Source: Comamonas fluminis
Lineage (GTDB): Bacteria; Pseudomonadota; Gammaproteobacteria; Burkholderiales; Burkholderiaceae_C
NCBI RefSeq assembly: GCF_019186805.1
Contig: NZ_CP066783.1
Coordinates: 1,873,501-1,937,500 of the forward strand
Reading direction: 5' to 3'
DNA length: 64,000 nt
Shown: one piece after another, positions 24,055-34,181 of the stretch
How the letters are laid out: the number at the start of each line of letters is the position of its first letter
Position numbering within the stretch: the stretch's first letter is position 1
Translations under genes and position numbers: made by a program
Notes under the pieces: model-generated
Told to the model about the DNA's origin: nothing
The model's database searches: none
What the model saw: the letters and a program-made list of their open reading frames with translations, nothing else

Positions 24055-24960
24055 TCAGGCGCTTGTAGCTGCGCTGTCTGTCTGGGCTTGCAGATACTGC
24101 AGCAGACTGTTGTTCAGCGCATTTGCAAAGTCCGGGTTGTTCACGATGCGCACATGAGGAATCCAGTAGCGCAGCGTGGGCAGCAATTGCTCGGCATGGC
24201 TGACCTGGGTGCTAACTTCAAGATAGTTGCTGTGTTCTCTGAGAATGGCTTGCTGAGGCACCTGCTGGCGGCGCTTGAAATACTCCATGGCCAGCCCGGA
24301 AACATGCAGGGTGACGCTGGTTTTCAGGCCGAACCAGATGCCGTCGCTGCTTTCTATCTCCTGCGTGAAGTCATTGCGCGGCTCGAAAAACTCCTCGGTT
24401 TTCAGCACATGGCTGCATTGCGATAGTGCAAAAGCCTTGAGCTTGCCGTTTTCCGCTGCAGCCAGATACCAGATTCCCTGCTGGTTGATGAGCTTGTAAG
24501 GCGCGAGGGTTCTGGCTTTGCTGCGGTGGCGCAAATGGCAGATATGGCGTTTGCGCACCGCCTCTTCCAGTGTGTCGAAGTCCTGGCGGTTGATGCCTTC
24601 CATTTCCGAGAAGGGGCCGCGAAACAGATAGCTTGGTTCGTCGCCCGGTGTTTCGGCCCACTGAGTCAGTCGCCGTAGCGTGTTGCCCGGCAATTGCTCC
24701 TGAATATCCAGCAGTGCCATCACGGCTTCGAGCTGTTTGAGTTGCAGGCGAGGCTGCAGATGCGGTCTGAGCTGATATCGCCCTTCAGGTGTGCTGTGCA
24801 CCCATTCTTCGAGGCGTTCCAGGTCGCGGAAGATGGTCCGTTCGCTGACGTTGAATTCCTGTGCAAGGGTCGCAGCTTGCTGCAACTGTTCGCCTGCATA
24901 AAGGCGGTGAATGAGTTCTGTCAGGCGCCTGGCTAATTTTGTGGTGTTTTCAGATGTCAT
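24055..24960 (-). CDS. WYL-domain transcriptional regulator
   Basis: A 301-residue regulator. An N-terminal DeoR-type winged helix (LAQEFNVSERTIFRDLERLE) is followed by a WYL ligand-binding domain (APYKLINQQGIWYLAAAENG) and a WCX-like C-terminal extension. I use the ATG at 24960 (MTSENTTKLARRL); an ATG at 25029 lacks a ribosome-binding site. WYL proteins often control defence or stress loci in response to a nucleic acid or nucleotide ligand. It is divergent from two small unknown genes and next to the SWIM-MoxR-VWA module, which it might regulate (inference). Confidence 0.88.
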   Translation of the reverse strand: MTSENTTKLARRLTELIHRLYAGEQLQQAATLAQEFNVSERTIFRDLERLEEWVHSTPEGRYQLRPHLQPRLQLKQLEAVMALLDIQEQLPGNTLRRLTQWAETPGDEPSYLFRGPFSEMEGINRQDFDTLEEAVRKRHICHLRHRSKARTLAPYKLINQQGIWYLAAAENGKLKAFALSQCSHVLKTEEFFEPRNDFTQEIESSDGIWFGLKTSVTLHVSGLAMEYFKRRQQVPQQAILREHSNYLEVSTQVSHAEQLLPTLRYWIPHVRIVNNPDFANALNNSLLQYLQAQTDSAATSA

Positions 24961-25132
24961 GCTGCTTAAAAATGATTTCTTTTTGTGAGTATAGAGGGGC
25001 TCTCTGACAGCGGATGTCAGTGGAAGCATTTTTTAAGTATTTTGTGAATTTATTGATTGGATGATTCTTTGCTGACTTCACCTGTCATTCGATATTTCTA
25101 AGCTTCAGGCATATTGATTACAGAGGGTGCGG

Positions 25133-25493: not shown

Positions 25494-25736
25494 ATGAAAA
25501 TCAAGGAATATTTGAGTTTGTTTGATGGCGGTATTTGTAAAGTCAAGGTGAAATTTAAAAATAATGCAGGCCAGGTTGCTGAAATGGCAATGGCTCCTGA
25601 GGAATTAATCAAAATTGTCAAGCCGAATGGCGAAGGCTTTGAAGATGAAATGAATTTTGATGAATGGAAATTCAAAGTAGAAAAATATGAAATATTTCCG
25701 CGAAAGAATTTATTGATTATTCATGCATATCAATAA
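25494..25736 (+). CDS. Small AT-rich hypothetical protein
   Basis: 80 residues starting MKIKEYLSLFDGGICKVKVK, with a strong AAGGAGGA site before the ATG at 25494. It is lysine- and glutamate-rich, has no cysteine pair beyond one Cys, and no membrane segment. Its base and codon use (many AAA, ATT, GAA) is far more AT-rich than that of its neighbours, which suggests recent acquisition. Family not recognised. Confidence 0.62.
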   Translation: MKIKEYLSLFDGGICKVKVKFKNNAGQVAEMAMAPEELIKIVKPNGEGFEDEMNFDEWKFKVEKYEIFPRKNLLIIHAYQ

Positions 25737-25928: not shown

Positions 25929-27341
25929 GTGTCGCGTGTACTAGCTACAGAAGCAGAGGTGTTGGCGCTATCGCCCGACGCGGCTTCGTCCAAAGCCGCC
26001 AAAGGGCTGCAATCCATCAGCAAGTGGCCGACCACGGGGGGTAACGATGCGGCGGTCTGGGGCGAATGCCAGGGCAGCGGCTCCAAGCCCTACCAAACGC
26101 AGGTCGATCTCAGTGGACCCGCCTTCAAATGCTCCTGCCCCAGCCGCAAATTCCCCTGCAAGCACGGCCTGGCGCTGATGCTGCTGCGCGCAGCGGGCCA
26201 GGTGGCAGATGGCGGTGAGCAGCCCGAATGGGTCAACGCCTGGCTGGGTGGCCGCGCAGAGAAGGCCGAGAAAAAAGAGGCCAAGGCAGCAGCCATAGCT
26301 GCGGCCCCCCCACCAGACCCTGAAGTGCTGGCCAAGCAGCAAGCCAAGCGCGACGACAAGCGCTGGGATAAGGTGGCTGCGGGCATGCAAGAGCTGTCGC
26401 TGTGGATGCAGGACATGGTGCGCACGGGCCTGGCCAACCAGTCTGGCGACGCCAAGGCGCGCCAGCACTGGCACACCATGGCCGCACGTATGGTGGACGC
26501 GCAGGCCACAGGCATGGCCGCCCGCATCAAGGAAGCCTGGGAGCTGGTGGACAGCCACCCGCAGTGGGCGCGTGATTTGCTGGTGCAGCTGGGCCACTGG
26601 CAGCTGCTGGTGGATGCGGTAGAGCGCCGCGAATCTTTGCCCGTCGATGTCAAAGCCGATGTGATGGCAGCGCTGGGCTGGCCGCTGGATAAGGCAGAAG
26701 TGCAAGCGCAGGGCGAGGCTCTGAGCGACCAATGGCGCGTGGCCGGCATACGCTTGATAGAGCGCGAAGGCCGCTTGCTGGAGCGCCATGTCTGGCTGCA
26801 AGGCCTGCAAAGTGGGCGCATGGCGCTGTTGCTGGACTACGCCCAGGGCGGGCGCGGTTTTGAATCGGCTTGGGTGCAAGGCGCCAGCTACAGTGGCCGC
26901 CTGCATTTCTACCCCGGCCGCGCCGCATCGCGTGCGCTGGCCGGTGGCGATATGCAATTGCTAGATAGCGATGCAGTGCTGAACACCGATGTGCTGGGCG
27001 ATGTCCTGCAACAACTGAGCCAGCGCATTGCCGCCAACCCGCTGCAGCCCACGCAGCCGCTGTGGTGTGCCAATGCAGGGCTGAATTTTGTCGATGGACA
27101 GTGGTATGCCGCATGGCCGAAAACCGCCGATATGGTCACCAACATGGCGCCAGTGCCTGTGGTGATTCAAGACGCCGAAGCGTGGCGCCTGCTGGCGCTG
27201 ACGGGCGGCGCACCCGTGGCCTTGTTTGGCGAATGGGAGGCTGGCCCGCAGATTGGCCGCTGGCGCTTGCTGAGCGCCTGGCAAGCCACAGAGCAGGGCG
27301 GTGCCTTGTCCTGCATCTGGCAAAACCGGGGAGAGGTGTGA
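25929..27341 (+). CDS. SWIM zinc finger protein, first gene of a MoxR-VWA module
   Basis: A 470-residue protein starting at GTG 25929, with AGGGGAG upstream. The N-terminal SWIM finger CxCx6CxH is exact: C68, C70, C77 and H79 in FKCSCPSRKFPCKHGLALML. SWIM fingers bind nucleic acid or protein. An Ala/Lys-rich linker (AEKKEAKAAAIAAAPPPDPE) joins it to a long helical C-terminal region without a motif I know. Its stop overlaps the start of the next gene (TGATG). In many bacteria proteins of this kind sit beside DUF5691, MoxR, DUF5682 and VWA genes, as they do here. Biochemical role unknown. Confidence 0.88.
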   Translation: MSRVLATEAEVLALSPDAASSKAAKGLQSISKWPTTGGNDAAVWGECQGSGSKPYQTQVDLSGPAFKCSCPSRKFPCKHGLALMLLRAAGQVADGGEQPEWVNAWLGGRAEKAEKKEAKAAAIAAAPPPDPEVLAKQQAKRDDKRWDKVAAGMQELSLWMQDMVRTGLANQSGDAKARQHWHTMAARMVDAQATGMAARIKEAWELVDSHPQWARDLLVQLGHWQLLVDAVERRESLPVDVKADVMAALGWPLDKAEVQAQGEALSDQWRVAGIRLIEREGRLLERHVWLQGLQSGRMALLLDYAQGGRGFESAWVQGASYSGRLHFYPGRAASRALAGGDMQLLDSDAVLNTDVLGDVLQQLSQRIAANPLQPTQPLWCANAGLNFVDGQWYAAWPKTADMVTNMAPVPVVIQDAEAWRLLALTGGAPVALFGEWEAGPQIGRWRLLSAWQATEQGGALSCIWQNRGEV

Positions 27342-29059
27342 TGAGCCAAGCCAATTTATGGACTGCGCTGCAGCAGTCAGCCTTGGTGGGGGCAGAGCGA
27401 CTGGCCGTGCCTGTTATTTTGACTACGCCCGATGTGAGCACGCCCGCCAGCGTGCAGGCCGTGCAAATGGCGCTGCAGCAGCCTGCGGCATCCATCGCCG
27501 CGCAAGTTCTGCGGGCCAGTGCGGCGGCTGCGGTGTTAGAGCGCACAGGCTGGGTGCCGGGCAGCCAGATTCAGCTGAGCGCGCCGCTGACGGTGCCTGT
27601 CATTCCGGCGCCCGAATCACGCAGCGCGCCAGACGATGCGCAGTTGGAAAGCCTGGTTGAAGCCATCATCACCGAAGGCCCGCAAGACCAGCTGGCGCCT
27701 ACCTTTGCAGAGCTGAACAACGCTGGCCTGCGCCTGCCGCACGGCCTGCTGGTCAGTGCGCTCAACCAGGGCCGCCAATCGACGGAGCTGCGCGAATGGC
27801 TGCTGCCCGTGCTGGGCGAGCGCGGCCGCTGGCTGGCCACGCAAAACCCGCAGTGGGCTTATGCCGCAGGCGTGCAAGAGACGGCCAATGCCGAGCAAAT
27901 CTGGCAAGAAGGCTCTGTTGCCCAGCGCGTGAGCCTGCTGGAGGCAGAGCGCGAAACCGACCCCGCCACGGCCCGTGCGCGGCTGGAAGCCAGCCTGAAA
28001 GAATTGAACGCCAAAGAGCGTGCACCCATGGTGGCGGCGCTGCACGCGGGCCTGAGCATGGACGACGAGCCGCTGCTGGAGAAACTGCTGGCCGACCGCA
28101 GCAAGGAAGTGCGCGAAAACGCCGCCCAGCTGCTGACCCGCTTGCCCGCCAGCGCGCACAGCCTGCGCATTACGGCCTGGCTGCAAACCATGCTGAGCCG
28201 CGATGACAAGGGCGAATGGCAAATCGAGCCGCCCACCGAGGGCAACAAAGACTGGGAGCGCGATGGCATTGCGCTGCAACTGCCTGCCTATGTAAAGGGC
28301 GAGCGTGCCTGGTGGCTGCAGCAGCTGGTGGCGCTGGCGCCCATTGATTTCTGGCGCCAGGCGCTGGACAAAAGCCCCGAGCAATTGTGGGATTGGAGCC
28401 GCCGCAGCGACTGGAAATCTGCGCTGCGCCAGGGCTGGCTGAAGGCGCTGGATACCCAGCACGACCTGCGCTGGCTGCCGCTGCTGCAAAGCATGGAAAG
28501 CGATTCGCGTGCGCAGGCTCTGCTGCCGCCGCTGCTCGACCAACTGACGACGGAGCAGCGCGAAGCAATGTGGCTGGAGCGCCTGCAGCGCAAGCAGGGC
28601 CAGAGCGCACTGATCGATTCCGTCAACAGCATGGATGACAGCATGGGTGCGGTCGATGTGCTCTCGCCCGCCATCTCGCAGTGGATTGTGGATGCGCTCT
28701 ACACCGCCACACGCGGCAAACAGGCACAGGGTAATTGGCACAGCTGGCAGGCCGACCAGGCCGTGCTGGCCTGCGCCAAACGCCTGCATGCCAGCCTGCT
28801 GCCGCGCTTTGCCGACCTGTGGCGCACGCCTGTGCCTGGGAGCGATTTGCCAGCCGCTAGTGAAGAACCCAAAGAAGCTGTGCAAGGCCCGAACGCCGAG
28901 GCCAACGCCGAAGTCATTGCCAAGCTCAAAGCCGAGCAGGAAGCCCGCCGCGCGCGCGCCCGCTTGCGGCCCTGGGATGACGAGCGCGTGCTGCAGCAAC
29001 TCAACCGTATTGTCGATTTGCGCATGGCCCTCGCCGCCGTCGCATCCCCCTCCATCTAA
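27341..29059 (+). CDS. DUF5691-like protein of the MoxR-VWA module
   Basis: A protein of 572 residues starting at ATG 27341, overlapping the SWIM gene stop by one base. The block LREWLLPVLGERGRWLATQN followed by PQWAYA is the feature I associate with DUF5691. The remainder reads as a chain of short amphipathic helices, HEAT-like in pattern (EKLLADRSKEVRENAAQLLT), so it is probably an alpha-solenoid scaffold. No catalytic motif is seen. It lies 27 bases before the MoxR gene. The domain name is from memory; a profile search would settle it. Confidence 0.8.
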   Translation: MSQANLWTALQQSALVGAERLAVPVILTTPDVSTPASVQAVQMALQQPAASIAAQVLRASAAAAVLERTGWVPGSQIQLSAPLTVPVIPAPESRSAPDDAQLESLVEAIITEGPQDQLAPTFAELNNAGLRLPHGLLVSALNQGRQSTELREWLLPVLGERGRWLATQNPQWAYAAGVQETANAEQIWQEGSVAQRVSLLEAERETDPATARARLEASLKELNAKERAPMVAALHAGLSMDDEPLLEKLLADRSKEVRENAAQLLTRLPASAHSLRITAWLQTMLSRDDKGEWQIEPPTEGNKDWERDGIALQLPAYVKGERAWWLQQLVALAPIDFWRQALDKSPEQLWDWSRRSDWKSALRQGWLKALDTQHDLRWLPLLQSMESDSRAQALLPPLLDQLTTEQREAMWLERLQRKQGQSALIDSVNSMDDSMGAVDVLSPAISQWIVDALYTATRGKQAQGNWHSWQADQAVLACAKRLHASLLPRFADLWRTPVPGSDLPAASEEPKEAVQGPNAEANAEVIAKLKAEQEARRARARLRPWDDERVLQQLNRIVDLRMALAAVASPSI

Positions 29060-29086
29060 CGCCCATTTTTTACCGGAAGCCACACC

Positions 29087-30169
29087 ATGAGCCAAGTCCT
29101 GCGACAGCACGCCGAACAGCAATTTGCCGAAGAACTCGATGCCCTGCAAAAGGTGGATGACCGTCCACGTCCGCCGAACTGGAAGCTCTCGCCCTGGGCC
29201 GTGCTGCAGTATTTGATGGGTGGCACCTTGAGCAATGGTTTTGAAGTCAGCGCCAAGTACATCGGCAATCCGCGCCTGATGGAGATTGCGGTTTCCACCC
29301 TGGCCACCGACCGCGCACTGCTGCTGTACGGCGTGCCCGGCACGGCCAAGTCCTGGGTGTCGGAGCATTTGTCGGCTGCGGTCAGCGGTGACTCGACCAT
29401 GCTGATCCAGGGCACCGCAGGCACCAGCGAAGAGCAACTGCGCTATGGCTGGAACTACGCCCAGCTATTGGCCCACGGCCCGTCCGAGAAAGCGCTGATC
29501 CCCAGCCCGCTGGTCAACGCCATGAAGCTGGGCAAGATCGCCCGCATCGAAGAGCTGACCCGCATCCCCGCCGATGTGCAGGACACCTTGATCACCGTGC
29601 TGTCTGAAAAGACCTTGCCCGTGCCTGAGCTGGGTATGGAATTCCAGGCTGTGCCGGGCTTCTCCGTTATCGCCACGGCCAACAACCGCGACAAGGGCGT
29701 GAACGAACTCTCCAGCGCCTTGAAGCGCCGCTTTAACACCGTGGTGCTGCCCGTGCCAGCCTCGCAAGACGAAGAAGTGCAGATCGTCACCAAGCGTGTG
29801 GGCGAGCAAAGTCGCGCCCTGCAACTGCCTGCCGAAGCGCCTGCGCTGCAGGAAGTGCGCCGCGTGGTGCAAATCTTCCGCGAACTGCGCAACGGCCAGA
29901 CCGAAGACGGCAAGACCGTGCGCGTGAAGTCGCCCAGCTCCACCTTGTCCACAGCAGAGGCCATCTCGGTCATCAACAGCGGCATGGCGCTGGCGGGCCA
30001 CTTTGGCGATGGCGTGCTGAGCGCGAACGATGTGGCGTCTGGCCTGCTGGGCGCGGTCATCAAGGACCCGGTTCAGGATACGGTGGTGTGGAAGGAATAT
30101 CTGGAGACGGTCGTCAAGGAGCGTGCCGACTGGAAAGATCTATACCGCGCCTGCCGAGAGCAATTGTGA
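29087..30169 (+). CDS. MoxR-type AAA+ ATPase
   Basis: A 360-residue AAA+ ATPase of the MoxR group. Walker A is GVPGTAKS (82-89). The Walker B position reads KIARIEELTRIP (Glu155-Glu156), so the usual Asp of the DE pair is Glu. Sensor 1 is VIATANNRDKG and an arginine-finger region ALKRRFNTVVLP follows. MoxR proteins work with VWA-domain partners as chaperone-like machines to insert cofactors or remodel targets. The VWA partner is two genes downstream. A 185-base gap to the next gene may hold a second promoter. Confidence 0.93.
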   Translation: MSQVLRQHAEQQFAEELDALQKVDDRPRPPNWKLSPWAVLQYLMGGTLSNGFEVSAKYIGNPRLMEIAVSTLATDRALLLYGVPGTAKSWVSEHLSAAVSGDSTMLIQGTAGTSEEQLRYGWNYAQLLAHGPSEKALIPSPLVNAMKLGKIARIEELTRIPADVQDTLITVLSEKTLPVPELGMEFQAVPGFSVIATANNRDKGVNELSSALKRRFNTVVLPVPASQDEEVQIVTKRVGEQSRALQLPAEAPALQEVRRVVQIFRELRNGQTEDGKTVRVKSPSSTLSTAEAISVINSGMALAGHFGDGVLSANDVASGLLGAVIKDPVQDTVVWKEYLETVVKERADWKDLYRACREQL

Positions 30170-30354
30170 GTTGTGCGGCAGTGAATACAGCTCTTGATAC
30201 TTCGTTGCCACGCAGGCCGCGCGCAAGCTCGCCGTAGCGCTGCTACTGTCTTCGCTTGCGACGCCTCGTCTCAACCGCCCATCTGCGATGGGCTGAGCTG
30301 TCTTCACTGCTGAAATTCCGTTGATTCACGCACATCGCAGCTTTCAAGAAATCT

Positions 30355-32970
30355 ATGGCCACTTCCGCTGATTCCGTTCACTTCTTTGGCATACGCCACC
30401 ACGGCCCCGGCTGTGCGCGCAGCCTGCTGCAGGCGCTTGAAGCTTTGCAGCCCGACTGCCTGTTGGTTGAAGGCCCGCCCGAGGGCGAGGCGCTGCTGCC
30501 CATGCTGCAAAGCGCCGAGCTGCGCCCGCCCGTGGCCATGCTGGTCTATATGCAAGACGCGCCCAGCCAGGCCGCGTTTTATCCGTTTGCCGAGTTTTCG
30601 CCCGAGTGGCAAGCCCTGCAATGGGCCAGCCGCCAGGGCGTTGCCACGCGCTTTATCGATCTGCCGCAAACCCATGCCATGGCGATTGAGTTTGCGCGGC
30701 GAGAGGCTTTGAAGAAGGCGATGGAAGAGGGCGGCGGCGCGACTGATGAAGTTGAAGACGCCGCTGAAGGCGATGAATCTGAGGCAGAAGCCGCAGAGCC
30801 TGCAGCGCAAGAAGCGGAAGGCGATGCACCAGACGCTGAGCAGATCGCCGCAGATGAAGCTGTAGAAGAGCCACAGACAGCGGCGCAAGAGCACCATAAC
30901 CACCGTGATCCGCTGGACTGGCTGGCCCACGCGGCAGGCTTTGAAGACGGCGAGAGTTGGTGGAACCGCTTGGTCGAGGAGCGCGGCGATAGTGAGGCGC
31001 TGTTTGAATCCATCAACGAAGCCATGACCGCTGTGCGCAGTGAGTTGGCCAAAGACGGCGAACATTGGCGCGGCGAAGCCTATGTGCAGCGCGAAGCCAT
31101 GCGTGAGGCCCATATGCGCCAGTGCATACGCGAGGCGACCAAGGCAGGCTACCAGCGCATTGCCGTGGTGTGCGGCGCATGGCATGTGCCCGCGCTGCAG
31201 CAAAGCGTGACGGCCAAGGCCGATAGTGCCTTGCTCAAAGGCCTGCCCAAGGCCAAGGTGATGGCCACCTGGGCGCCGTGGACCTATCGCAATCTGGCCA
31301 GCAGCAGCGGCTATGGTGCGGGTGTCACATCGCCGGGCTGGTATGAGCATCTGTGGCGCTGCTACCAGGCAGATATGGAATCAAACAGGCCGCTAGCGCA
31401 GGATGAAAGCGCGCCAGAAGCTATTAAAAATATAGTAAACCCTGCGGTCAAGCCAGCCGTTTTGCGCACCGCAGGCTGGCTCACCCGCGTGGCCCATCTG
31501 CTGCGCGATAAAGATCTGGACTGCTCCAGTGCACACATCATTGAAGCCACGCGCCTGGCCGCCAGCTTGGCTGCGCTGCGTGGCCAGCCCACGCCGGGGC
31601 TGCAAGAGATTAACGAGGCCATCGTCACGGTGGTTTGCATGGGTGAGACTGCGCCGCTCAAGCTGATTGACGACGCACTCACCGTGGGCCATGTGCTGGG
31701 CAGCGTGCCCGCCGATGTGCCCCAGGTGCCGCTGCAGCGCGATATAGAGCAGCAGCAAAAATCGCTGCGCATGAAGCCCGAGGCGGCAGCCAAGCTGCTG
31801 GCGCTGGATTTGCGCAAAGAAAATGATTTGGCACGCAGCCACTTTCTGCACCGCCTGCGTCTGCTAGGCATTGGCTGGGGCACACCCGCGCAAGATGCGC
31901 AGCGCAACCGCGGCACCTTCCGCGAAAGCTGGCAGATGCAGTGGGAGCCCGAGCTGGCCGTGCGCGTCATCGAAGCCAGCGTGCATGGCGCCACCGTGGC
32001 ACAAGCCGCCACGGCCAAGCTACGCGCCAGCCTGACGCCCGAGACCGCACTGCCCGAGATTGCCCATGCCATTGACGACGCACTGCTGGCCAACTTGCCG
32101 CAGTTGGTTGAGGCCTTGATTGAAACTTTGGCCGAGCGCGCAGCCACCACGGGTGATGTGGCCCAGTTGCTGCAAGCCTTGCCGCCGCTGGCCAATGTGT
32201 ACCGCTACGGCAGCGTGCGCCAGACGGATACGGTGCTGCTGGCCACGGTGATTGATTCGCTGGTGCTGCGTGCCGCCATCGGCCTGCCCGTGGCTTGCAT
32301 GGCCATGGACGAAGACGCGGCGGGCGCGATGAAGATCAAGGTGCTGGCCGCCCACGATGCATTGCGCTTGCGCGGCATGGATGGCCAGGCCCAGGAAGCC
32401 GTGGACGCCTGGCGCGCCGCACTGCGTAGTCTGGCCATGGGCGATGCGGCCGCGGCCTTGCTGCGCGGCATGGCCTGCCGTTTGCTGCTGGATGAGCATC
32501 TGCTGGAAAGCGCCGAAGTGGTGCGCCAGTTCAACCGCAACCTCTCGCTGGGCGCCGCGCCCATGGATGTGGCGGCCTGGCTGGATGGCTTTTTGAACCA
32601 GCAAGCCTTGGTGCTGCTGCACGATGAATCCATCTGGGGCGCGATCGATGCGTGGTTGACGAGCTTGGGCGAGCTACAGTTTGCGCAAATCCTGCCGCTG
32701 GTGCGCCGCAGCTTTGCCAACTTCAGCAAGCACGAGCGACAAAGCCTGGGCGAGAAAGCCAAGCGTGCACCGGTCGCTGGTGCGGTGCAGACCGGCTCAG
32801 TGCAAGTCGCCCCAGTCGCAAGCGGCGAGGAAGCCGGACCATGGGACGAGCAGCGTGCAGCACTGGCACTGCCGGTGTTGAGCGCACTATTAGGGCTGAA
32901 TCTGCCTGAAGTCCAGGCAGTAAAGTCGCCTGTAGCTCCTGATTTTGAAGCATCTACAGATAAGGTGTGA
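30355..32970 (+). CDS. DUF5682-like protein with TraB/ChaN-type motifs
   Basis: An 871-residue protein. The N-terminus shows GIRHHGPG (12-19) and LLVEGPPEGE with Glu39, and further on VVCGAWHVPAL with His277. These resemble the paired G-x-x-H and E motifs of the TraB/TIKI/ChaN/EreA fold, which include metal-dependent hydrolases; that relationship is my inference. Between them, residues about 124-185 are a very acidic, low-complexity insert rich in Glu and Ala ending in HHNHRD. The long C-terminal half is helical and resembles an adaptor. It overlaps the VWA gene start. Activity unknown. Confidence 0.82.
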   Translation: MATSADSVHFFGIRHHGPGCARSLLQALEALQPDCLLVEGPPEGEALLPMLQSAELRPPVAMLVYMQDAPSQAAFYPFAEFSPEWQALQWASRQGVATRFIDLPQTHAMAIEFARREALKKAMEEGGGATDEVEDAAEGDESEAEAAEPAAQEAEGDAPDAEQIAADEAVEEPQTAAQEHHNHRDPLDWLAHAAGFEDGESWWNRLVEERGDSEALFESINEAMTAVRSELAKDGEHWRGEAYVQREAMREAHMRQCIREATKAGYQRIAVVCGAWHVPALQQSVTAKADSALLKGLPKAKVMATWAPWTYRNLASSSGYGAGVTSPGWYEHLWRCYQADMESNRPLAQDESAPEAIKNIVNPAVKPAVLRTAGWLTRVAHLLRDKDLDCSSAHIIEATRLAASLAALRGQPTPGLQEINEAIVTVVCMGETAPLKLIDDALTVGHVLGSVPADVPQVPLQRDIEQQQKSLRMKPEAAAKLLALDLRKENDLARSHFLHRLRLLGIGWGTPAQDAQRNRGTFRESWQMQWEPELAVRVIEASVHGATVAQAATAKLRASLTPETALPEIAHAIDDALLANLPQLVEALIETLAERAATTGDVAQLLQALPPLANVYRYGSVRQTDTVLLATVIDSLVLRAAIGLPVACMAMDEDAAGAMKIKVLAAHDALRLRGMDGQAQEAVDAWRAALRSLAMGDAAAALLRGMACRLLLDEHLLESAEVVRQFNRNLSLGAAPMDVAAWLDGFLNQQALVLLHDESIWGAIDAWLTSLGELQFAQILPLVRRSFANFSKHERQSLGEKAKRAPVAGAVQTGSVQVAPVASGEEAGPWDEQRAALALPVLSALLGLNLPEVQAVKSPVAPDFEASTDKV
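31407..31428 (+). repeat. Copy of a dispersed motif (inside the DUF5682 gene)
   Basis: AAGCGCGCCAGAAGCTATTAAA, followed by an AT-rich run, encodes a loop that interrupts an otherwise GC-rich gene (SAPEAIKNIVNPAVKP). It resembles the 20-bp motifs at 20778, 25873 and 50851. Confidence 0.35.
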
Positions 32971-34181
32971 TGATGAATGCCAACGTGAACACACCTAGCA
33001 CCGATCCCGAACTGAACGAGCAGGAGCTGCAACCCACCTCACGCCTGCAGCGCTGGCGCATGGTGCTGGGCAGCCCGGCGGACGCCAGCTGCGGCGGTGT
33101 CTCTGGCCGTTTGCAAGAGATGGATCAGGCGCTTGCATCGCTGTATGAGCAAGACACCAAGCTGGGCTCGCGCAAGGGCGGGCGCGGCGATTCTTCGCCA
33201 TCCGTCTCGCGCTGGCTGGGCGATATCCGCAAATACTTCCCCAGCCAGGTGGTGCAGGTGATGCAGCGCGACGCGATGGAGCGCCTGCAACTGCGCGAAA
33301 TGCTGCTGCAGCCCGAGATGCTGGAGAACGTGCAGCCCGATGTGCATCTGGTGGCCGACCTGATCTCGCTGGGCTCGGTCATTCCGCAAAACACCAAGGC
33401 CACAGCGCGGCTGGTGGTGCGCAAGGTGGTCGATGAGCTGATGAAAAAGCTGGAAGAACCCATGCGCAGCGCAGTCAGTGGCGCGCTGGACCGCAGCCAG
33501 CGCAACCGCCGCCCGCGCCATGCAGAGATCGACTGGAACCGCACCATCCGCGCCAACCTGCGCCACTGGCAGCCCGAGTACAAAACCATCGTCCCCGAGA
33601 CCTTGATTGGCTATGGCCGCAAGGTGCGTCGCCCGCAGCGCGAGGTGATTTTGTGCATTGACCAGAGCGGCTCGATGGCCAACTCGGTCGTGTACTCCAG
33701 CATCTTTGGTGCGGTGATGGCCAGCCTGCCTGCCGTGGCCACCAAGCTGGTGGTGTTTGACACGGCGGTGGTGGACTTGACCGACAAACTGGACGACCCA
33801 GTGGACGTGCTGTTTGGCGTGCAACTGGGTGGGGGCACTGATATCAACGGCGCGGTGGGCTACTGCCAGAGCATCATCAGCGAGCCGCGCAACACGATTT
33901 TGGTACTGATCTCTGACCTGTATGAAGGCGGCGTTGAATCGGGCCTGCTGCGCCGTGCCAACGAGCTGGTCGAATCCGGTGTGCAGTTTGTCACGCTGCT
34001 GGCGCTGAGCGACGAGGGCGCTCCGTCATACGACGCCGACCTGGCCGCCAAGCTGGCCGCCTTGGGCGTGCCATCGTTTGCCTGCACGCCAGACGCCTTC
34101 CCGCAGCTAATGGCCGCTGCCATCCGCCGCGACGATGTGAGCGCCTGGGCGGCGACGCAGGGTTTCAAGACCAGCAAATAA
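32970..34181 (+). CDS. VWA-domain protein (MIDAS), last gene of the MoxR module
   Basis: A 403-residue protein with a C-terminal von Willebrand A domain. The metal-ion-dependent adhesion site is complete: D231-x-S233-x-S235 in CIDQSGSM, Thr290 in LGGGTDINGAV, and Asp316 in ISDLYEGG. The N-terminal half contains RWLGDIRKYFPSQVVQVMQR and a helical region that VWA partners of MoxR proteins often carry. It starts at ATG 32970 overlapping the stop of the previous gene (GTG at 32967 and ATG at 32973 are alternatives). No signal peptide, so it is cytoplasmic. Confidence 0.92.
   Translation: MMNANVNTPSTDPELNEQELQPTSRLQRWRMVLGSPADASCGGVSGRLQEMDQALASLYEQDTKLGSRKGGRGDSSPSVSRWLGDIRKYFPSQVVQVMQRDAMERLQLREMLLQPEMLENVQPDVHLVADLISLGSVIPQNTKATARLVVRKVVDELMKKLEEPMRSAVSGALDRSQRNRRPRHAEIDWNRTIRANLRHWQPEYKTIVPETLIGYGRKVRRPQREVILCIDQSGSMANSVVYSSIFGAVMASLPAVATKLVVFDTAVVDLTDKLDDPVDVLFGVQLGGGTDINGAVGYCQSIISEPRNTILVLISDLYEGGVESGLLRRANELVESGVQFVTLLALSDEGAPSYDADLAAKLAALGVPSFACTPDAFPQLMAAAIRRDDVSAWAATQGFKTSK

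Follow-up and report, generated by a model that had tools for sequence, protein, structure and literature searches.

A conserved five-gene MoxR-VWA unit of Comamonas fluminis with a distant relative in E. coli yehLMPQ: a possible motor-coupled hydrolase

Introduction

What do five adjacent genes for a SWIM zinc finger protein, a DUF5691 protein, a MoxR AAA+ ATPase, a DUF5682 protein and a VWA protein do together in a bacterium? This question is raised by a locus of Comamonas fluminis at positions 25929-34181 of the window, by which we mean the whole stretch of 64,000 nucleotides that was analysed (contig NZ_CP066783.1, 1,873,501 to 1,937,500). A first-pass annotation made from the DNA letters had taken the genes for one functional module around a MoxR-VWA motor pair, possibly a conflict system or a triggered effector complex. 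Our analysis leads us to propose, tentatively and at somewhat less than even likelihood, that they encode a cytosolic ATP-driven MoxR-VWA machine that works a tethered DUF5682 hydrolase and uses the SWIM and DUF5691 proteins as its receptor. The unit and its couplings are well supported, and it is hydrolysis and substrate delivery that we infer.

Results

A five-gene unit conserved across loci

All five genes lie on the forward strand. The SWIM protein (25929-27341, +; 470 residues; Pfam SWIM, 1.6e-05) is followed by the DUF5691 protein, a HEAT-like alpha-solenoid candidate (27338-29059, +; 573 residues; PF18944, E 1.8e-107), whose start was chosen internally within the listed open reading frame (ORF) 27062-29059 and shares 4 bases with the end of the SWIM gene. 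Next come a MoxR AAA+ ATPase of YehL type (29087-30169, +; 360 residues; Pfam AAA_5, 3.7e-36), the large DUF5682 protein (30355-32970, +; 871 residues; PF18934, 1.2e-256) and a VWA_CoxE protein with a complete MIDAS (32967-34181, +; 404 residues; PF05762, 3.4e-52), whose start again overlaps the preceding stop by 4 bases. Profile searches thus bear out the five identities read in the first pass, together with the common direction and the overlaps of the first two and last two genes. No likely membrane segment was found in any of the five proteins, the highest 19-residue hydropathy being 1.91 in the VWA protein, and the set is therefore probably cytosolic.

A scan with the DUF5682 alignment over one genome per species (84,980 genomes) returned at least 584 confirmed relatives, and the best 80 were taken as the locus set, which is skewed to close kin of the window; the nearest named locus is that of C. 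testosteroni NFYY023 (95% in a three-protein alignment). All five genes are present in 65 of the 80 loci. Sixty of these have identical order and strand, only 5 of them showing a gap of over 500 bases between genes, and such agreement in 60 of 80 loci places the unit far beyond chance. The SWIM-DUF5691 block is inverted in four other complete loci (Streptomyces and kin) and one more is rearranged. Among the 15 incomplete loci, 8 break off at the end of a contig close to the absent gene, and 7 have the sequence present yet the gene missing (L054, L058, L070, L086, L101, L105 and L114).

Co-occurrence was scored in 695 genomes drawn evenly from Pseudomonadota (299), Bacteroidota (198) and Actinomycetota (198). 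Above the cut-off DUF5691 was found in 28 genomes, three centre genomes being counted among them, and DUF5682 in 36, including 28 of the 28 with DUF5691 (Pseudomonadota 6/299, Bacteroidota 6/198, Actinomycetota 16/198; Fisher 4e-43, with genomes counted as independent despite kinship). Seven genomes with DUF5691 matches below the cut-off were left out (G049, G245, G353, G501, G585, G689 and G723), of which G501 alone has DUF5682. In two Bacteroidota (G517 and G376) the two genes lie on separate contigs and still co-occur. The scattering of the genes singly that would speak against a single functional module was not seen in this survey, DUF5691 always being accompanied by DUF5682, and the first-pass view of the set as one module stands. 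Pairwise distances of the five proteins also correlate with each other (r 0.73-0.91; 66 complete sets including the window), and relatives of the system occur in at least 11 phyla. On this sequence evidence the five genes are inherited and kept together as a fixed unit.

Several loci depart from this layout. MoxR and DUF5682 are separated by an extra protein in a Variovorax (L046, 7593-9944; 784 residues) and in a member of the Verrucomicrobiaceae (L051, 4079-4801; 241 residues), and Pfam gives these proteins a weak TPR match at most. A Fusobacterium record labelled as a plasmid (NZ_CP084075.1, L121), at 2.1 Mb probably a chromosome by its size, has SWIM, MoxR, DUF5682 and VWA genes, and the 1.9 kb that separate SWIM from MoxR gave no match to the DUF5691 profile. 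L148 (1478-9018, in G559) holds highly divergent MoxR, VWA and DUF5682-like genes in a changed order; Pfam does not detect its DUF5682-like ORF at 0.001, and it is perhaps a fourth form.

Natural fusions suggest which parts pair

SWIM is fused to DUF5691 in three loci (L048, L071 and L116; one betaproteobacterium and two Planctomycetota), the L048 fusion being confirmed with Pfam. Actinomycetota carry nine extra DUF5682 copies beside the main ones. All six of those scoring 671-718 bits (L146, L147 and L154-L157) run in a single frame from DUF5682 into VWA with MoxR adjoining, two of them Pfam-confirmed, and DUF5682 is unfused in two of the remaining three (L158 in G664 and L148 in G559; the G697 third copy was left out). 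A plasmid record of Streptomyces atratus (L120) has another Pfam-confirmed DUF5682-VWA fusion, with a DUF4132 gene upstream, bringing this fusion to seven actinobacterial loci in all. In all seven, the next reading frame after the fusion contains a finger-like CxC...CxH motif, C[GST]CLLAP.C[LV]H, as a pattern match only, and the L120 protein has no Pfam SWIM match. The existence of these natural fusions argues that SWIM and DUF5691 on the one hand, and DUF5682 and VWA on the other, are physical pairs.

The finger of the window SWIM protein reads C68-x-C-P-S-R-K-F-P-C77-K-H79, and the pattern CxCPSRxxPCKH is kept in 67 of 68 sequences. When the L048 fusion was modelled with AlphaFold2 (AF2; pLDDT 78.6, pTM 0.53, 25 rows), the finger was followed by a helical middle and a beta-rich C-terminal part of the SWIM protein, and the DUF5691 half was all-helical; at this pTM we place no trust in how the two halves are positioned relative to each other. 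Matches of the model in the VIA fold search were mostly HEAT/ARM solenoids at background Z, and the Pfam HEAT match of DUF5691 lies below the cut-off. The alpha-solenoid character proposed for DUF5691 in the first pass fits the modelled helical half and these structural matches.

Relation to E. coli yehLMPQ

E. coli K-12 carries a row of genes yehL (MoxR), yehM, yehP (VWA) and yehQ (SWIM), of which YehM is a DUF5682 protein (331 bits). The window MoxR matches YehL with 229 bits versus 22.7 bits for RavA, the only two MoxR proteins compared, and the window VWA protein matches YehP with 253 bits versus 24.6 bits for ViaA. Both loci have the DUF5682 and VWA genes directly 3' of MoxR, and Pfam finds the SWIM finger in the window SWIM protein as well as in YehQ. 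The likeness therefore consists of homologous MoxR, DUF5682 and VWA genes in matching order plus a SWIM gene, whereas E. coli has DUF4132 genes upstream and the SWIM gene last, and no DUF5691 was found there. YehQ gave no significant alignment with the SWIM protein of the window's form (probability 0.4%). We refer to the window form with DUF5691 as type A and to the E. coli-like form with DUF4132 in its place as type B.

In a hidden Markov model search of 13 type-B loci (L002, L119, L136-L144, L153 and L158), DUF4132 was found next to MoxR-DUF5682-VWA in 12; the exception, L143, ends shortly past yehM and has none in 6.5 kb upstream. DUF4132 is also present in seven type-A loci of Bacteroidota, where it immediately follows VWA or, in the case of L097, separates DUF5682 from VWA; these loci form a bridge between the two types. 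Pfam detected no DUF4132 among the four genes that flank the window module, two on each side. A kinship of DUF5691 with DUF4132 or with YehQ was considered and rejected (hhalign probabilities of 2.1% and 0.1%). By these comparisons the window module and yehL-yehM-yehP-yehQ of E. coli are forms of one system. The first pass had recognised the module itself but not its yehLMPQ relatives in E. coli, its link to DUF4132 or the fusions.

The same association could instead point to a nucleic-acid or DNA-damage stress response, in which the SWIM and DUF4132/WGR parts would read DNA or RNA and the motor would clear or repair protein-nucleic acid blocks. In favour are the type-B and Bacteroidota loci with DUF4132 just described and the rise of a Deinococcus DUF4132 operon on DdrO depletion (accessible text of PMC8533742). 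Yet DUF4132 is lacking from the type A of the window, and the accessible part of that source does not show its Deinococcus genes to be members of a YehL-type system, so that we regard this explanation as improbable.

The YehL subfamily of MoxR has been named in print (accessible text of PMC3893208). We found no study of its function among the open-licence papers listed by our searches, nor any paper on DUF5682 or DUF5691. The relative yehM is present in 5284 of 5426 E. coli genomes, in 5166 of them at 80% cover or more. One E. coli genome (NZ_CP137737.1, hit H22) has an IS5 transposase within yehM.

DUF5682 as a candidate hydrolase

The AF2 model of DUF5682 (pLDDT 85.6, pTM 0.81) has an N-terminal alpha/beta domain (about residues 1-320) and a C-terminal helical solenoid (about 457-808). 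The signature of TIKI, TraB and Ere proteins has the form GxxH...E...GxxH. A signature of this kind lies in the N-terminal domain as G12-x-x-H15-H16, E39 and G274-x-x-H277. R14, E39, D102, E208, R250, E251, G274 and H277 are kept in 52 of 52 rows and H15 and H16 each in 51, with single substitutions of H15 in L100 and of H16 in L063; the conserved set is also present in E. coli YehM and in the VWA-fused form. The catalytic set of the TIKI/TraB/Ere group is described as 2His/2Glu (accessible text of PMC6254334). Two His and one Glu of this type are present in DUF5682 (H15, H277 and E39), and neither H15 nor H16 has a Glu at position -2; D102, E208 and E251 are invariant, with spatial positions unmapped.

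Fold comparison adds little to the residues. Foldseek gave no match for DUF5682 at 0.001 and no solved structure was found by sequence at E up to 1. HopBA1 was among the matches of the VIA search, which listed no ChaN, Ere or TIKI chain besides it, an absence that excludes nothing. DUF5682 thus resembles TIKI, TraB, ChaN and erythromycin esterase in the GxxH, Glu and GxxH elements of an N-terminal alpha/beta domain and in the HopBA1 match, and differs from them in its long C-terminal solenoid, the lack of a clear first Glu and the absence of a Foldseek match. We consider it a probable hydrolase; the His/Glu signature is kept in all forms seen. The suggestion of a possible hydrolase made in the first pass is strengthened by the retained residues, and its TraB/ChaN-like label is backed by them and weakly by the fold search.

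DUF5682 could alternatively be a catalytically dead scaffold whose conserved residues serve to stabilise the fold or to bind a ligand, the module then being a pure chaperone. The lack of a known activity, the weak fold match and the substitutions of H15 and H16 would fit this idea. Against it, no correctly framed row shows a change at E39, D102, E208, R250, E251 or H277, across forms that are about 25% identical, and we give a dead scaffold very little likelihood. In the Comamonas relative G003 (L145, 7039-9598) DUF5682 occurs in two pieces, reflecting a frameshift or an assembly error.

The MoxR-VWA motor and the maturation alternative

The MoxR ATPase and the VWA protein retain their motifs. 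Walker A is matched in 64 of 74 MoxR sequences, Walker B in all 74 and sensor 1 in 70. Walker B is usually Asp-Glu, and is Glu-Glu in the nine MoxR proteins that were aligned. Midasin and Lon are solved relatives of the MoxR protein by sequence, and none was found for VWA at E up to 0.01. In 75 VWA proteins (the window and 74 loci) the MIDAS is kept as DxSxS in 75, the GGGT motif in 73 and the later Asp motif in 74. Both the completeness of the MIDAS in the window and the reading of the two proteins as a motor pair, as made in the first pass, are upheld by these counts.

NorQ-NorD, CoxD-CoxE and RavA-ViaA likewise combine a MoxR ATPase with an adjacent VWA/MIDAS protein. They differ from the window in that its VWA protein is coupled to a probable hydrolase, and RavA-ViaA, the pair compared by sequence, shows no significant match to the window proteins. 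In NorQD the VWA protein inserts a finger through the pore of the MoxR ring, and the partner is twisted as ATP is turned over (accessible texts of PMC13036017 and PMC9976466).

These pairs suggest a maturation machine, in which MoxR-VWA would remodel a client metalloenzyme to insert a metal or cofactor, as with NorQD, CoxDE or Mg-chelatase, and DUF5682 would be the client or a metal handler instead of the working hydrolase. MoxR-VWA pairs are known for maturation (accessible texts of PMC9976466, PMC13036017 and PMC7159879), the window VWA protein is of CoxE type, and the conserved His, Glu and Asp of DUF5682 could bind metal. Upstream on the same strand, four loci (L053, L076, L079 and L092; 3796-5485 in L092) have a class-V aminotransferase, with a SufE-like gene in three; Pfam was run on L092 and L053 only. 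The aminotransferase is presumably of the cysteine-desulfurase kind, and these neighbours, the strongest hint of a metal or Fe-S role, led us to raise the likelihood of maturation slightly, although three of the four loci are Chitinophaga and may reflect shared ancestry. Set against it, no metalloenzyme family was seen recurring widely, the largest neighbour clusters being ABC-ATPase-like (10 loci) and DUF4132 (7), with smaller ones partly identified, and the DUF5682-VWA fusion in seven loci suits a working part over a passing client. Overall we regard maturation as rather unlikely.

Inheritance, mobility and the conflict reading

The first pass entertained a role in conflict or against phages, as in MoxR-vWA ternary systems, and the module shares with such systems a MoxR, a vWA and a third protein. 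Its presence is patchy (12/299 Pseudomonadota). Most but not all Comamonas have it, and the purL-DUF808 site is empty of it in two relatives. A type-B copy lies near a restriction-like set on an Iodobacter plasmid, and some PADLOC families are seen in flanking genes. Unlike the ternary systems with VMAP, iSTAND or beta-propeller parts, however, the window module has no VMAP or iSTAND Pfam domain in its five proteins, and the beta-propeller type bpMoxR scores 23.2 bits, below its cut-off of 27. Genuine conflict systems show swapped effectors (accessible text of PMC7159879). The VWA protein ends 166-184 residues past the MIDAS motif in 74 loci, and hence no swapped effectors are carried at its C-terminus. 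Four of the five proteins match no PADLOC family and MoxR has a weak IetA match alone. The window MoxR also matches the MadB model of MADS with 50 bits, against a cut-off of 475 bits, and the other four proteins match no MADS model.

Surroundings and descent point the same way. The idea of a defence island is weakened: 38 PADLOC families had matches at 1e-10 among 123 ORFs that flank the module in 36 loci, the commonest in 3 members with no control set for comparison, and the 25 families listed of the 38 include some generic enzymes and one AbiE-like set. The 123 were drawn from 296 filtered ORFs (57 loci) of 773 flanking ones, 18 loci being set aside manually because they were near-duplicates or difficult to read. 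The concatenated tree clusters by phylum, with 13 label changes where at least 10 are required and shuffled labels average 39, and inheritance thus appears to be mostly vertical with few transfers. Gain and loss occur, and the profile is unlike that of a defence cassette. Taken with the near-core status of yehM in E. coli and the lack of any confirmed viral contig, this makes a conflict system quite improbable, and the triggered-effector proposal of the first-pass annotation is not sustained.

A mobile element likewise finds little support, none of 36 viral-contig pattern matches being confirmed. Matches fall in 36 plasmid records, and among the 20 listed all but one exceed 180 kb. The Iodobacter plasmid mentioned above (L119, 351-17755) holds its type-B module close to insertion sequences and a type I restriction-like set. 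A 14 kb bacteriophage-labelled, unannotated faecal record (MT835988.1, hit H21) encodes a DUF5682 relative (31%) and may be bacterial DNA.

Of 41 genomes searched, the window's included, DUF5682 is present in 18, all of them in the genus of the window, and G009 among these has the type-B kind only. Five purL regions came from genus relatives lacking type A. G004 and G008, which have no DUF5682, share the purL and DUF808-OmpW-metZ surroundings with other genes between; G009 retains OmpW only, and G010 and G012 purL only. Alternative cargo at this site was rejected, since G008 and G004 hold ordinary metabolic and signalling genes there.

Discussion

Our preferred reading, that of a motor-coupled DUF5682 hydrolase, can be put as a sequence of steps. 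The core is a MoxR ring ATPase with the DUF5682-VWA pair. By analogy with NorD in NorQ the VWA domain may dock into the MoxR hexamer, and ATP turnover would then shift the tethered DUF5682 domain so that its active site is opened or fed. The SWIM-DUF5691 receptor would deliver a substrate, which could be a protein, a peptide or a nucleoprotein, and DUF5682 would hydrolyse this substrate in the manner of TIKI/Ere-type enzymes, with a peptide or ester bond as the most likely target. E. coli yehLMPQ with DUF4132 could be a sister machine with a different solenoid receptor.

We further speculate, as an unlikely yet serious possibility, that the system represents a new class in which a MoxR ring drives a VWA protein carrying a TIKI-type hydrolase fed by a SWIM finger, and thus an unrecognised family of AAA+ proteases or deconjugases that spans at least 11 phyla and has a near-core relative in E. 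coli. If true, an enzymatic working part would be added to the MoxR-VWA machines, which are otherwise mainly known as remodellers or metal-insertion chaperones. The near-core genes yehL, yehM, yehP and yehQ, for which no function is in print in the literature searched, would gain a testable model in the form of a motor-coupled hydrolase; the fusions indicate which contacts to seek and the conserved residues which mutants to make.

Two features lie just upstream of the module in the window. A divergent helix-turn-helix (HTH)-WYL regulator (24055-25029, -) was considered as a part of it and rejected: in a search of 86 loci, many of which have short flanks, C. testosteroni L042 alone had a relative, and the regulator is therefore probably local. 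Between this gene and the module lies an AT-rich ORF of 80 residues (25494-25736, +) with an AAGGAGG-like site just 5' of it.

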